A DNA stretch of 64,000 nt from Arthrobacter ipis (GTDB lineage: Bacteria; Actinomycetota; Actinomycetes; Actinomycetales; Micrococcaceae). The DNA lies in contig NZ_JAAOXD010000003.1 in assembly GCF_014694315.1 (NCBI RefSeq), positions 1-64,000 of the forward strand, given 5' to 3'. This document shows positions 13,339 to 17,020 of the stretch, in pieces; within the stretch, counting starts at the first letter, position 1; each line of letters begins with the position of its first letter. The position numbers and the translations under genes were made by a program. The notes beneath the pieces are model-generated. The model was not told the DNA's origin and made no database searches. It saw nothing but the letters and a program-made list of their open reading frames with translations.

Positions 13339-14292
13339 TCAGGCGGGCAGCCGGTACCCGCCCTGGTGCAGTTCGGCCAGGCCGTCCTCGAGGAGGCCCG
13401 CCAGAGCCCGTTCCAGCTGCTCCGGGGCACAGTTCAACCGGTGCAGGGCGGCCAGCGGCACGCCGATGCCGGCGGCTTCGAACCCGAGGTCGGCGGGGGC
13501 CTGCCGGAACATCTCCGCCGGCACCGGCGAGTCCGCCAGCCGGAGGACGGCCATCACACCGCCGCGGACCTGGCGGTCGGTGCCGTGCCACGCTTGGCCC
13601 TTGGGCGTATACGACGGCGGCGGCTCACCGGCGGCGAGCCAGGCGCACCGGTCGCGTACGGGGCAGACGGCGCACTTGGGTGCGCGGGCCGTGCATACCA
13701 GCGCCCCCAGCTCCATGACCGAAGCGTTCCAGCGGACGGAACTGCCGGCGTCGGACGGCAGGAGTTCCGCGGCAAGCCGCATCTCCGCGGCCGTCAGGGC
13801 CGGGGCGGGCAGGGCGGAGCCTGAAAAGAGCCGCGCGTGGACACGGCGGATGTTGGTGTCCACCACCGTCTCGCGACGCCCAAAGGCGAAGGCGGCGACG
13901 GCGGCCGCCGTGTAGCTGCCCACCCCCGGCAGTCCGAGCAACTCGGCGTAGTCCTGCGGGACCCTGCCGCCGTGGTCTCGTTCGATGGCGGCCGCGGCAG
14001 CATGCAGCCTGAGCGCGCGCCGCGGATAGCCCAGCCGGCCCCAGGCCCGGACCGCCTCGCCGGCGGGTTCCCGTGCCAGCGCTGCAGGCTCCGGCCACCG
14101 GCGCAGCCACTCTTCCCAGACCGGCAGCACACGGACCACGGGGGTCTGCTGCAGCATGATCTCGCTGACCAGCACGCCCCAGGGCGGGCAGTCGGGCGAG
14201 CGCCACGGCAAATCCCGGGCTTCGGCGTCGAACCAGTCCTCCAGTGAGGAGTGGACGTCCGTCAGGTCGGGGCAATCAGCTGTGGTTTTGAT
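13339..14292 (-). CDS. mutY: A/G-specific adenine glycosylase MutY, unusual start
   Basis: Removes adenine mispaired with 8-oxoguanine. The catalytic glutamate is in VSEIMLQQT, the helix-hairpin-helix in LPGVGSYTA, the catalytic aspartate in VDTNIRRVHAR, and a 4Fe-4S cluster motif C-x6-C-x2-C-x5-C follows VCTARAP. The only canonical in-frame start is TTG at 14211, which would cut into the conserved WFDAEARDLPWR block. That block is encoded upstream, where the frame is open back to a stop at 14304-14302. A TAGAGT hexamer at 14304-14299 lies exactly six bases before an ATC at 14292, the spacing of the leaderless genes here, so ATC is used as a tentative start. The true start is uncertain. Confidence 0.88.
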   Translation of the reverse strand: MKTTADCPDLTDVHSSLEDWFDAEARDLPWRSPDCPPWGVLVSEIMLQQTPVVRVLPVWEEWLRRWPEPAALAREPAGEAVRAWGRLGYPRRALRLHAAAAAIERDHGGRVPQDYAELLGLPGVGSYTAAAVAAFAFGRRETVVDTNIRRVHARLFSGSALPAPALTAAEMRLAAELLPSDAGSSVRWNASVMELGALVCTARAPKCAVCPVRDRCAWLAAGEPPPSYTPKGQAWHGTDRQVRGGVMAVLRLADSPVPAEMFRQAPADLGFEAAGIGVPLAALHRLNCAPEQLERALAGLLEDGLAELHQGGYRLPA

Positions 14293-14341
14293 GCCAACAC
14301 TCTAGTTGAAAACCGCGACGGCGGTTCCCGACCCTGCGCCG

Positions 14342-14788
14342 TCAGCTGGCCTCCTGCTCCGCGGGAGGCAGTCCTTCCTGCCGCGCGGGCAGCCGCCTGA
14401 CATGGCCGTGCAGGGTTTCGCCGCCGCGGCCGTTGGGCGCCGGAACAGCAAGGGCCACTACGAAGCTGGCGCTGTTCGGGTCCACTGAGCGGATGGTCAG
14501 GCTGCGCGTTCCTTCCGGTATTGACGGCGCAAAGAACTGCAGCTGGCGGGAGCCGACGGTGGCCACCTCATCCAGCTTGTACTCTGTGCCGAAATGGTCA
14601 TGGATAACGATTTCGGGGGTTTGCGGCTCTTCGTTATTGACTGAGGCGAGATGCAGGTTCACCACGATCCCGGTGTCCCAGATCTCAACCGCAAGCACCG
14701 TGAACGCAGTGCCCTGGCTCTGATGTTTGCCAAACGTCAGCGGCAGTAGAACGCGTTCGAGGTGACCGCCAGACACGTGATCTACCAT
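14342..14788 (-). CDS. Hypothetical protein, predicted beta-rich
   Basis: A 148-aa soluble protein of unknown function. The sequence alternates short hydrophobic strands and turns (EIVIHDHFGTEYKLDE, LQFFAPSIPEGTRSLTIR), suggesting an immunoglobulin-like or similar beta-sandwich. The C-terminal 30 residues are charged and probably flexible. The ATG at 14788 is chosen because GGAGAGG lies seven bases upstream. An in-frame GTG at 14878 would add 30 residues but has no ribosome binding site. It lies beside mutY on the same strand, with no evidence of a functional link. Confidence 0.6.
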   Translation of the reverse strand: MVDHVSGGHLERVLLPLTFGKHQSQGTAFTVLAVEIWDTGIVVNLHLASVNNEEPQTPEIVIHDHFGTEYKLDEVATVGSRQLQFFAPSIPEGTRSLTIRSVDPNSASFVVALAVPAPNGRGGETLHGHVRRLPARQEGLPPAEQEAS

Positions 14789-14949
14789 CAGTGGTCCTCT
14801 CCAACTCGGCCCGGTAAGTGGTATCCGGGATTCAATTTTAGTAAGCGTGCTGACAGTTGTCACCCGAATTTGAGTCACGAATTGGACATGGTGGGGCTGT
14901 GGCGGCGTGGTGGTGCAGCAGAAGCCTGGCCGTTCCTTAGCCTAGAAGG

Positions 14950-15675
14950 ATGGGCAGGCAAGACACTCCGAACTCCGGCGCGGGCCGGAACCGGTCGCCG
15001 AAACCGGCGGCACAGAAAACGGCACCCGGGAAAACGGTGCCCCGCGCGGGCCGCAAGCCGAGCCCCGCCGTGTACCGCCGTCGTCGGCTCTTTGCCGGCG
15101 TGGCGCTGCTGCTGGTCCTGGGCCTGATCGCCGGCGGTGTCGCAACGGTTTCCAGCCTCCTCGGCGGCGCCGAGCGGGCCGTCTCCGCGCAGGACTCCGC
15201 GCAGGGCTCCGCAACGCCGGGCAGCACCGCGCAGCCGGGCGCAACGCCGTCGGCCAGCCCTTCTGCCACCCCCTCCGCCTCGCCCACGTGCGACCAGAAG
15301 CTCGTGACGGTCAAGGCGGCCACCAACAAGACGTCCTACGCCGCAGATGAGAAGCCGGTGCTGAGCCTCACGGTCACCAACGGCGGGAAGCTTCCCTGCA
15401 AGGTGAACATCGGCACGTCGCAGATGGACTTCCTGGTCACCAGCGGCTCGGACCGCGTCTTCTCATCCGCCGACTGCCAGGCCGCCAGCACTGACCTGGT
15501 CAAGACCATCGCGCCCGGTAAGAGCGAAACGGCGAACTTCCCGTGGCCGCGCAACCGTTCGGTGCAGGGCTGCGAGACGGTGCCGGACGGTTCGGTTGCC
15601 GGCAGCGGGTACTACGTGTTCATCGCAAAGCTTGGCGCCAAGGTCAGCCCGCCGACGGTCTTCCAGCTCAGCTGA
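14950..15675 (+). CDS. Membrane-anchored hypothetical protein with extracytoplasmic domain
   Basis: 241 aa: a basic Pro/Lys/Arg-rich cytoplasmic N-terminus (about residues 1-47), one transmembrane helix (FAGVALLLVLGLIAGGVA, about 48-68), a Ser/Ala/Pro/Thr linker (about 75-112) and an extracytoplasmic domain with three or four cysteines. The domain resembles DUF4232-like beta-sandwich proteins (LSLTVTNGGKLPCKVNIG...), but the assignment is loose. The start is preceded by AGAAGG. It is convergent with disA across a short palindrome. Confidence 0.72.
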   Translation: MGRQDTPNSGAGRNRSPKPAAQKTAPGKTVPRAGRKPSPAVYRRRRLFAGVALLLVLGLIAGGVATVSSLLGGAERAVSAQDSAQGSATPGSTAQPGATPSASPSATPSASPTCDQKLVTVKAATNKTSYAADEKPVLSLTVTNGGKLPCKVNIGTSQMDFLVTSGSDRVFSSADCQAASTDLVKTIAPGKSETANFPWPRNRSVQGCETVPDGSVAGSGYYVFIAKLGAKVSPPTVFQLS

Positions 15676-15804: not shown

Positions 15805-16881
15805 TTAGAGGAACCGGTCCAGCAGGCTGGCTTCGGCCATGCGGCTGAGGCCCTCACGGACCGTGCGGGCGCGCTGGTCGCCGATGCCGTCCACGGTCAT
15901 CAGGTCGTCAATGGTTGCGGCCATGAGGTACTGCAGCCCGCCGAAGTGGTCCACCAACCTGTCCGCGACGGCCTTCGGCACGGCCTTGAGCCCGGACAGG
16001 AGCCGGTAGCCCCGGGGCTGCACCACTGCGTCCAGGGTGTCCACGCCGCCGGCGAATCCGATGATCCCCGCGATCTTGCTGAGGTCGATCAGTTCGGTGG
16101 GACCGAGGTTGAGGAGCGCGCTGACCGCGCCGTCGATGTCCTCCGGAGATGCTTTCGGCCCGGCGTAGTCGCGGATGATGATGTCGCTGCCCGGGCCGCG
16201 GCCCACCGTGAGCTCGTCCAGCTGGAGGGACAGGAGCCTGCCGTCCTCGCCAAGCTCCAGAACATACTGCGAGATTTCCTCGGAGATCCGGCGCACCATC
16301 TCCTGACGCTGCAGGGTTACGGCCACATCGCGGACCGTCACCATGGCCTCGATCTCCAGGGCAGAGAGCGAACTGGTCACCTGGTCCAGGCGGGAACGGT
16401 AGCGTTCCAGCGTGGCCAGGGCCTGGTTGGCGCGGGCCAGGACCTTTTCGGAGCCCTCGAGCACATGCCGCAGCCCGTTGACGTACAGCGCGATGATCTG
16501 CATGGACTGGCTCACCGATATGACCGGGACGCCTGTCTGGATGGCCACGCGTTCCGCGGTCCGGTGCCGGGTGCCCGATTCCTGCGTTTCGATGCTCGAG
16601 TCCGGGACGAGCTGAACTGCCGCGCGCAGGATGTTGCTGGCATCCTTGTCGCAAACAATGGCGCCGTCCATCTTGGCCAGTTCGCGGAGCCGGGTGGGCG
16701 AGAAGTCGATGCCGATGTCGAAGCCGCCGGAACAGATCGAATCGATGGTCCGGTCCGAGCCCAACACGATCAGCGCGCCGGTGCGTCCGCGGAGAATGCG
16801 TTCCAGGCCGTCCCGCAACGCGGTCCCCGGGGCCACCCTCCCCAAAGTCGCCTTGAGCGATTCTTCAGGGCTGCGAGCCAT
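15805..16881 (-). CDS. disA: DNA integrity scanning diadenylate cyclase DisA
   Basis: Makes cyclic di-AMP from two ATP and scans DNA for lesions or branched structures. The 358-aa protein has an N-terminal DAC domain with the DGA motif at residues 72-74 and RHR at 105-107, a helical linker, and a C-terminal helix-hairpin-helix domain (ending in TIDDLMTVDGIGDQRA). The ATG at 16881 follows GAAGGGA with good spacing; an in-frame TTG at 16896 is less likely. radA lies 7 kb away and mutY nearby on the same strand. Confidence 0.96.
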   Translation of the reverse strand: MARSPEESLKATLGRVAPGTALRDGLERILRGRTGALIVLGSDRTIDSICSGGFDIGIDFSPTRLRELAKMDGAIVCDKDASNILRAAVQLVPDSSIETQESGTRHRTAERVAIQTGVPVISVSQSMQIIALYVNGLRHVLEGSEKVLARANQALATLERYRSRLDQVTSSLSALEIEAMVTVRDVAVTLQRQEMVRRISEEISQYVLELGEDGRLLSLQLDELTVGRGPGSDIIIRDYAGPKASPEDIDGAVSALLNLGPTELIDLSKIAGIIGFAGGVDTLDAVVQPRGYRLLSGLKAVPKAVADRLVDHFGGLQYLMAATIDDLMTVDGIGDQRARTVREGLSRMAEASLLDRFL

Positions 16882-17020
16882 AGATATTCCCTTCAAAGGT
16901 GCAGGCGGGCCTGCAGGTTTACCGGTTTCCGATAGTCCGCCGGCAGGATCAAAAGTACTCGGTTTCCCGCATGCACCATCCTAGAGGTAGATTACCCCAG
17001 CAACCGCACGGGCAAGCCTT

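Follow-up and report, generated by a model that had tools for sequence, protein, structure and literature searches.

The mutY gene in the 64,000-nt stretch of Arthrobacter ipis DNA analysed here (the window) has no canonical start codon ahead of its conserved N-terminal block, and an in-frame ATC close behind a predicted -10 promoter box very probably takes its place. As judged from sequence comparison, mutY would be transcribed from its own promoter into a leaderless mRNA, and ribosomes would start at its 5'-terminal AUC, most likely in a weak, IF3-sensitive manner.

Read directly on the minus strand of the window, the region runs TTCAAC-TAGAGT-GTTGGC-ATC-AAA-ACC-ACA-GCT into mutY. Its elements, all on the minus strand, are (i) TCAAC (14305..14309), which adjoins the -10 box and matches the consensus TCNAY of the loci with ATC; (ii) the hexamer TAGAGT (14299..14304), the predicted -10 box, whose first triplet is an in-frame TAG; (iii) the 6-nt spacer GTTGGC (14293..14298), after which the next base is the predicted transcription start; (iv) the ATC (14290..14292), the proposed 5'-terminal AUC start codon; and (v) codons 2-5, AAA ACC ACA GCT (14278..14289), which are A/C-rich and follow the group pattern RAN RCY NNA RCC. 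From the ATC to the stop codon, the coding sequence (13339..14292, minus strand) would specify a 317-amino-acid actinobacterial MutY-type adenine glycosylase. The open reading frame as listed from TTG 14211 (13339-14211) has 290 amino acids and, because this TTG encodes the L within the conserved WFDAEARDLPWR block (codons at 14200..14235, minus strand), it lacks WFDAEARD. A preliminary description of this DNA had held that TTG 14211 is the sole canonical start and that the WFDAEARDLPWR block begins upstream of it, which a listing of the ATG, GTG, and TTG codons from the upstream stop to the block bore out. Our reading likewise agrees with its account of a frame open back to the stop at 14304-14302, of TAGAGT six bases before the in-frame ATC at 14292, and of CTG 14265 and CTG 14244 as codons in frame with mutY. 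When the first 90 nt of the predicted mutY mRNA were folded, the first 7 nt were unpaired (z -2.3).

Both the HhH-GPD fold and the Fe-S cluster motif by which a MutY adenine glycosylase is recognised were found in the product, which passed the Pfam cut-offs for PF00730 (50.4 bits), PF00633 (28.0 bits), and PF10576 (23.0 bits). Among six NCBIfam families, TIGR01084 (mutY) scored highest, at 201 bits, which lies below its equivalog cut-off of 286.5; the product is thus MutY-type by best match, short of the curated cut-off. A block equivalent to WFDAEARDLPWR, located with a pattern made for it, is present in the family loci and in order-level loci down to 52% identity.

For the comparison, 295 mutY loci were gathered from Micrococcaceae, namely 1 + 30 from the genome itself and the genus draw, 80 from named contigs (the best 80 among 99 that matched peptide patterns), 29 from the family draw, a further 60 + 55 from the genus, and 40 from the family; removal of identical 5' regions left 242 distinct ones. 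The genus draw comprised 150 genomes spaced evenly through the larger group, 146 of which were read (no match came from G134, and partial ones from G029, G031, and G131), and about 70 of the 120 genomes in the family draw were read, chiefly the better-scoring ones. In 124 of the 242 distinct regions, a TANNNT box was followed 5-7 nt later by an ATC in frame with mutY and open to the W of the conserved block, the spacing being 6 nt in 112, 7 nt in 11, and 5 nt in 1. These counts are not independent events, because the loci are related. The remaining 118 regions lacked the ATC as counted; they include L090, whose box lies just more than 200 nt from the W of the conserved block, yet which has an ATC at 7 nt. 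When all ATC sites up to 200 nt before the W were considered, the codon was in frame in 112 of 112 cases at 6 nt, 11 of 12 at 7 nt, and 1 of 2 at 5 nt. No in-frame stop codon occurred between ATC and W in any of the 124 loci, as against 57 and 60 loci with stops in the other two frames. In a pass over 102 loci that covered triplets at all spacings from 2 to 13 nt, ATC occupied the 6-nt position in 55, and ATT and ATA in none. Outside Micrococcaceae, none of the 25 order-level loci, which were the best-scoring ones, had an in-frame ATC at 5-7 nt.

The ATC sits amid changing sequence. Across 110 ATC loci, the -10 box is TACAGT in 60, TACGCT in 23, TAGAGT in 11, and one of seven other forms in the rest; the spacer takes 27 forms; and the second codon is GAC, AAA, GAA, or GAT. 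In the 100 loci with a 6-nt spacer, numbered with the A of ATC as 0, the columns that agree in 97-100 of 100 are T-17, C-16, A-14, the T, A, and last T of the box, A+4, C+7, and C+13; the ATC itself stands at 100/100 by selection. Parsimony counts were made on a clade of 59 rows that includes the window, all rows being kept. Each base of the ATC showed zero changes, so that a putative start codon lacking a 3' G, of the infC type, is conserved in 59/59 rows, whereas the third bases of codons 2 and 3 changed 4 and 7 times, and the first 240 nt from the W averaged 2.1, 1.2, and 11.2 changes at codon positions 1, 2, and 3. For a more stringent control, two gene-body columns encoding Ile in 58 of the 59 rows were compared; they showed 6 and 1 third-position changes, and third-position changes were absent from 13 of 281 ungapped codon columns. 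Columns A+4, C+7, and +22 likewise had 0 changes; A+4 and C+7 take the invariance beyond the ATC codon, and part of it may come from an element in the DNA or RNA. The zero at the ATC is therefore suggestive alone, and becomes strong only when joined with the frame, the spacing, and the lack of other starts. The preliminary description had proposed a non-canonical ATC start, and this gains support from the 59/59 rows that keep ATC behind a -10 box; the orthologue comparison that it called for turned up an ATG or GTG differing by an indel at the ATC site in 0 of the 59. At the level of sequence, the comparison thus establishes the ATC, its spacing and frame, its invariance in the clade, and the absence of any other conserved start.

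The A+C content of nucleotides 4-15 is 74% in the 110 ATC loci, compared with 59% in 29 leaderless ATG/GTG candidates. Codon 4 (14283-14281 in the window) ends in A in 87 of the 100 loci with a 6-nt spacer, as CAA, ACA, CTA, or TTA; the leucine codons CTA and TTA are rare in such G+C-rich genomes. The TCNAY motif beside the -10 box is almost invariant in these 100 loci (T 99, C 100, A 99), and in the 59-row clade its T, C, N, A, and Y changed 4, 3, 13, 4, and 5 times, against 12-21 changes at each site 19-45 nt upstream. TCNAY may serve as a binding site for a regulator or as a special promoter element; TCNAY-TANNNT-N6-RTG occurs eight times in the genome (control 3).

Substitution patterns were examined in disjoint pairs of loci. 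In 30 pairs of equal ATC-to-W length, differences at codon positions 1/2/3 numbered 108/85/149 from ATC to W, and a flat 128/141/121 upstream of the box. In 26 pairs, the counts were 25/30/54 from codon 11 onward (p 0.001), 31/21/39 in the last ten codons before the W (p 0.07), and 16/12/18 in codons 2-10 (p 0.54), where changes are few and no position bias is significant. Judged by these substitutions, codons 2-10 are by themselves no proof of translation; it is the stop-codon counts that support translation of the whole ATC-to-W stretch.

A tree of 128 MutY proteins, built with the N-terminal part removed and with many weakly supported forks, placed the window in the 59-row clade (SH-aLRT 95), in which ATC is present throughout. 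Its sister group of 32 rows, which includes Paenarthrobacter and A. bambusae, has ATC in none; the starts there are mostly ATG, and the flanking sequence differs from that of the ATC loci. ATC also occurs in L090 (Pseudarthrobacter sp. PS3-L1), entered as ATC by hand, and in four loci that group codes assign to three other genera (L116; L123 and L134; L138), so that the tree requires four state changes for ATC. The distribution would fit either an old ATC in this part of the family with several losses or multiple origins. Five Glutamicibacter-type loci (L107-L111) carry GTG exactly 6 nt behind the box, an arrangement suggesting that the ATC arose later than the leaderless layout. By eye, an ATG or GTG also follows TANNNT at 6-7 nt in several other members of the family. 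Leaderless mutY thus seems to be a wider theme, of which ATC would be a variant.

Paenarthrobacter-type mutY genes mostly read TACAGT-N7-AGT/AGC-ATG-ACA-CTT, with the ATG 54 nt before the W in L051, L059, L064, L067, L069, L070, L072, L073, L080, L082-L085, and L088. They share GACACT with the ATC-GAC-ACT loci, in a different frame, as if a small indel had put AUG in place of AUC and displaced the first codons. Separately, the MutY of L101 (WNZI01000005.1, titled Vibrio cholerae strain 35D) groups with Micrococcaceae rows, and this record looks mislabelled or contaminated.

The window and a further 400 kb of its genome (about a tenth of it) were scanned for start codons behind TANNNT boxes. 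In the strict scan, with a score limit of 8, ATG and GTG sites in coding context numbered 13 and 3 at 6 nt and 6 and 7 at 7 nt, 5 of these 29 lying within the window; the spacing of 6 nt at mutY falls within this 6-7-nt peak, in keeping with the preliminary description, which had noted the same spacing at the window's leaderless genes. Other triplets likewise occur at 6-7 nt, among them 11 places with ATC (five: one at 6 nt and four at 7 nt), CTG (four, one of them within the window), ATT (one, inside what we take to be secA), or ATA (one). At other spacings, ATC occurred 0-3 times, so the four at 7 nt are slightly high; the window mutY itself scored 3.7, below the limit. A relaxed scan accepted codons 6-7 nt after TANNNT at a coding-sequence edge, and non-canonical ones where no canonical start lay upstream. 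It returned 55 ATG and 31 GTG, followed by a background of 1-5 per codon (TTG 2, ATC 2), the two ATC places being mutY and one on contig C1 that resembles a non-coding frame. Within the scanned tenth of the genome, ATC is therefore no general leaderless start. Across the 4.5-Mb genome, TANNNT-N6-ATC-RANRCY (control 0) and TCNAY-TANNNT-N6-ATC (control 1) each match once, at mutY; both patterns were derived from mutY, so these matches are descriptive, and it is conservation between species that provides the real test.

The infC gene of the same genome (L261:1486-1488; G000:C11 near 820405) reads ATT-AGC-GAG after AGGAGC, within ACAGGAGCTTTAAC. This ATT is the expected infC start, but the assignment depends on infC homology, since the reading frame continues upstream past it and includes a GTG 33 codons away. 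An initiator tRNA with an altered anticodon was considered and rejected: the GGGCTNNNAACCC pattern occurs at 20 places in the genome, none with GAT. ARAGORN, run on five of the 20, identified two, with GGGCTCATAACCC, as tandem tRNA-Met genes (CAU), and no tRNA at the other three.

Upstream of mutY, the window holds a co-directional open reading frame of 178 amino acids without a Pfam match (14342..14878, minus strand), which ends 49 nt before the ATC, followed by a divergent gene (14950..15675, plus strand) and by an open reading frame (15805-16896, minus strand) that, by eye, is presumably DisA, a diadenylate cyclase. Of the 63 ATC loci with longer flanks, 62 have a relative of the divergent gene upstream of mutY, on the opposite strand; the single miss is L138, which spans only 306 nt upstream. 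The 178-aa reading frame lies between mutY and the divergent gene in 11, all near relatives of the window, and is close to mutY in 10. In 51 of the 63, the divergent gene is present and the extra co-directional reading frame was not found as searched, so mutY requires its own promoter there. In 19 loci assessed by their longest open reading frame, the neighbour picture is less clear than in the 63-locus comparison.

We considered four other accounts of this region. Translation might begin downstream, at CTG 14265, CTG 14244, or TTG 14211, leaving the ATC in a short untranslated leader. Although 62 of the 124 ATC loci contain some ATG, GTG, or TTG between ATC and W, and codons 2-10 are free of significant codon-position bias, we regard such a start as unlikely: the other 62 loci contain none, and the two CTG codons, offered as alternatives in the preliminary description, vary between loci, that at 14265 being TTA in L034, an Arthrobacter globiformis locus with the same ATC, and that at 14244 TTG in L004 and Leu, Ile, or Val elsewhere, so that none was seen to be conserved. 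A protein begun at TTG 14211 would lack 8 of the 12 conserved-block residues, and a GGAGG downstream of the ATC (14242-14238) has, by eye, no start at the usual distance in the window. Moreover, a leader needs no reading frame, whereas the stretch from ATC to W is free of in-frame stops in every ATC locus. A canonical start farther upstream, on a longer mRNA in which the ATC would be an internal Ile codon, is very improbable. The frame is indeed open upstream, with an ATG, GTG, or TTG, in 54 of 110 ATC loci; however, the window clade has the in-frame TAG inside its -10 box, a stop lies four codons before the ATC in 20 of the 110, no canonical start exists anywhere in 30, and in-frame stops occur in 52 over an equal length upstream of the box, where substitutions also follow no codon pattern.

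The AUC could also be a genuine but internal start, reached by reinitiation on a read-through mRNA from the upstream gene. This is improbable in our estimation, since the co-directional reading frame that would make it attractive, some 49 nt upstream in the window clade, was not found as searched in 52 of the 63 loci, 51 of which have the divergent gene, whereas a -10 box at 5-7 nt accompanies the ATC in all 124. A sequencing error or frameshift, which the preliminary description had entertained, or a decayed gene, is a negligible prospect. A lone window lacking a canonical start would look the same, but the ATC recurs in 124 distinct regions from many assemblies, and sequencing error is therefore excluded; in addition, the gene body scores above the HhH-GPD and Fe-S cut-offs, and its changes within the clade fall mostly at third positions.

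In the favoured reading, that of a leaderless 5'-AUC mRNA, the TCNAY-TANNNT element would act as the promoter of mutY, and transcription would begin at the A of ATC. Ribosomes, probably 70S particles with initiator fMet-tRNA, would start at the terminal AUC. The product would be a MutY beginning fMet-Lys-Thr-Thr..., in which a short extension precedes the WF...LPWR domain, and the AUC would have persisted while a large Arthrobacter clade diversified. We infer the exact 5' end, the fMet, and the reason for the AUC from this arrangement. According to part of a review, IF3 antagonises leaderless initiation, and starts without a 3' G are under IF3 discrimination (PMC4611024); passages from a study of reconstituted translation describe a smaller full-length fraction with more IF3 for weak third-position pairs (PMC10158994), and part of another report describes a boost to leaderless translation by downstream CA repeats (PMC9031893). 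From these papers and the A+C content of the 5' coding end comes the hypothesis that weak, IF3-sensitive initiation limits the amount of MutY or links it to the condition of the initiation machinery, with the A/C-rich 5' end aiding a weak AUC start. That selection keeps the AUC as a deliberately weak 5'-terminal start, through which MutY synthesis would report the IF3:70S ratio in the way that AUU does for infC, with the A/C-rich codons 2-5 easing its acceptance by the ribosome, is a tentative proposal, which we hold to be possible but doubtful.

If confirmed, a fixed leaderless AUC would be a real exception to published start rules. The rules for leaderless start codons derive from reporters and specify either AUG alone or AUG together with GUG. 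In the part of the mycobacterial selection study available, ATG or GTG is necessary and sufficient at the leaderless 5' end, ATC being a presumed negative control, and behind a Shine-Dalgarno sequence at the leadered position, ATC reached 0.2% after selection, low yet above background (PMC4633059). Part of the review has it that GUG, UUG, or CUG is no substitute for AUG at a leaderless 5' end (PMC4611024). For M. tuberculosis, the passages seen report no enrichment of ATC/ATT starts and name AUC, AUU, and AUA as rare starts (PMC9094748), and among 61,358 reconstructed ancestral AUG starts, the excerpted text gives one switch to AUU and none to AUC (PMC5622118). In the literature searched, which gives partial coverage, no earlier report of a leaderless AUC start codon was found; the matches listed for ATC/AUC start codons concerned mainly mitochondrial genomes, and none of those listed for Arthrobacter or mutY with a leaderless start dealt with an AUC start. 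Gene callers limited to ATG, GTG, and TTG would miss the true MutY start in the species with this ATC, and in 35 of the 124 ATC loci, no such codon exists from the upstream stop to the W of the conserved block. Similar starts should be findable through a conserved -10 box before an in-frame near-cognate codon. The mutY AUC also offers a ready natural substrate for studying terminal-codon selection by 70S ribosomes and the action of IF3 on leaderless mRNA.

Among known systems, mutY resembles the mycobacterial leaderless ATG/GTG genes, as far as these are described in the part of the source seen, in having a -10 box 6-7 nt before the codon, a predicted transcription start at the codon's first base, and no Shine-Dalgarno sequence; it differs from them in its codon, which is AUC where the mycobacterial rule demands ATG or GTG at the 5' end (PMC4633059). 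With infC, mutY shares a conserved AUH start that IF3 would be expected to disfavour, and the infC of this genome reads ATT. The AUU start of infC is discriminated by IF3, as in the autoregulation known from E. coli. The two differ in that a leader containing the Shine-Dalgarno-like AGGAGC precedes infC, whereas mutY lacks one and its codon would be 5'-terminal. The nearest earlier report is reportedly that of Baudet et al. (2010) on non-canonical initiation codons in Deinococcus deserti, a bacterium rich in leaderless mRNAs, and mutY would resemble it, going by the title of that report alone, in having a non-canonical start in a leaderless setting. Leaderless mRNAs and AUC as a rare start codon are each already known, and their fixed combination in mutY would be a variant of both.
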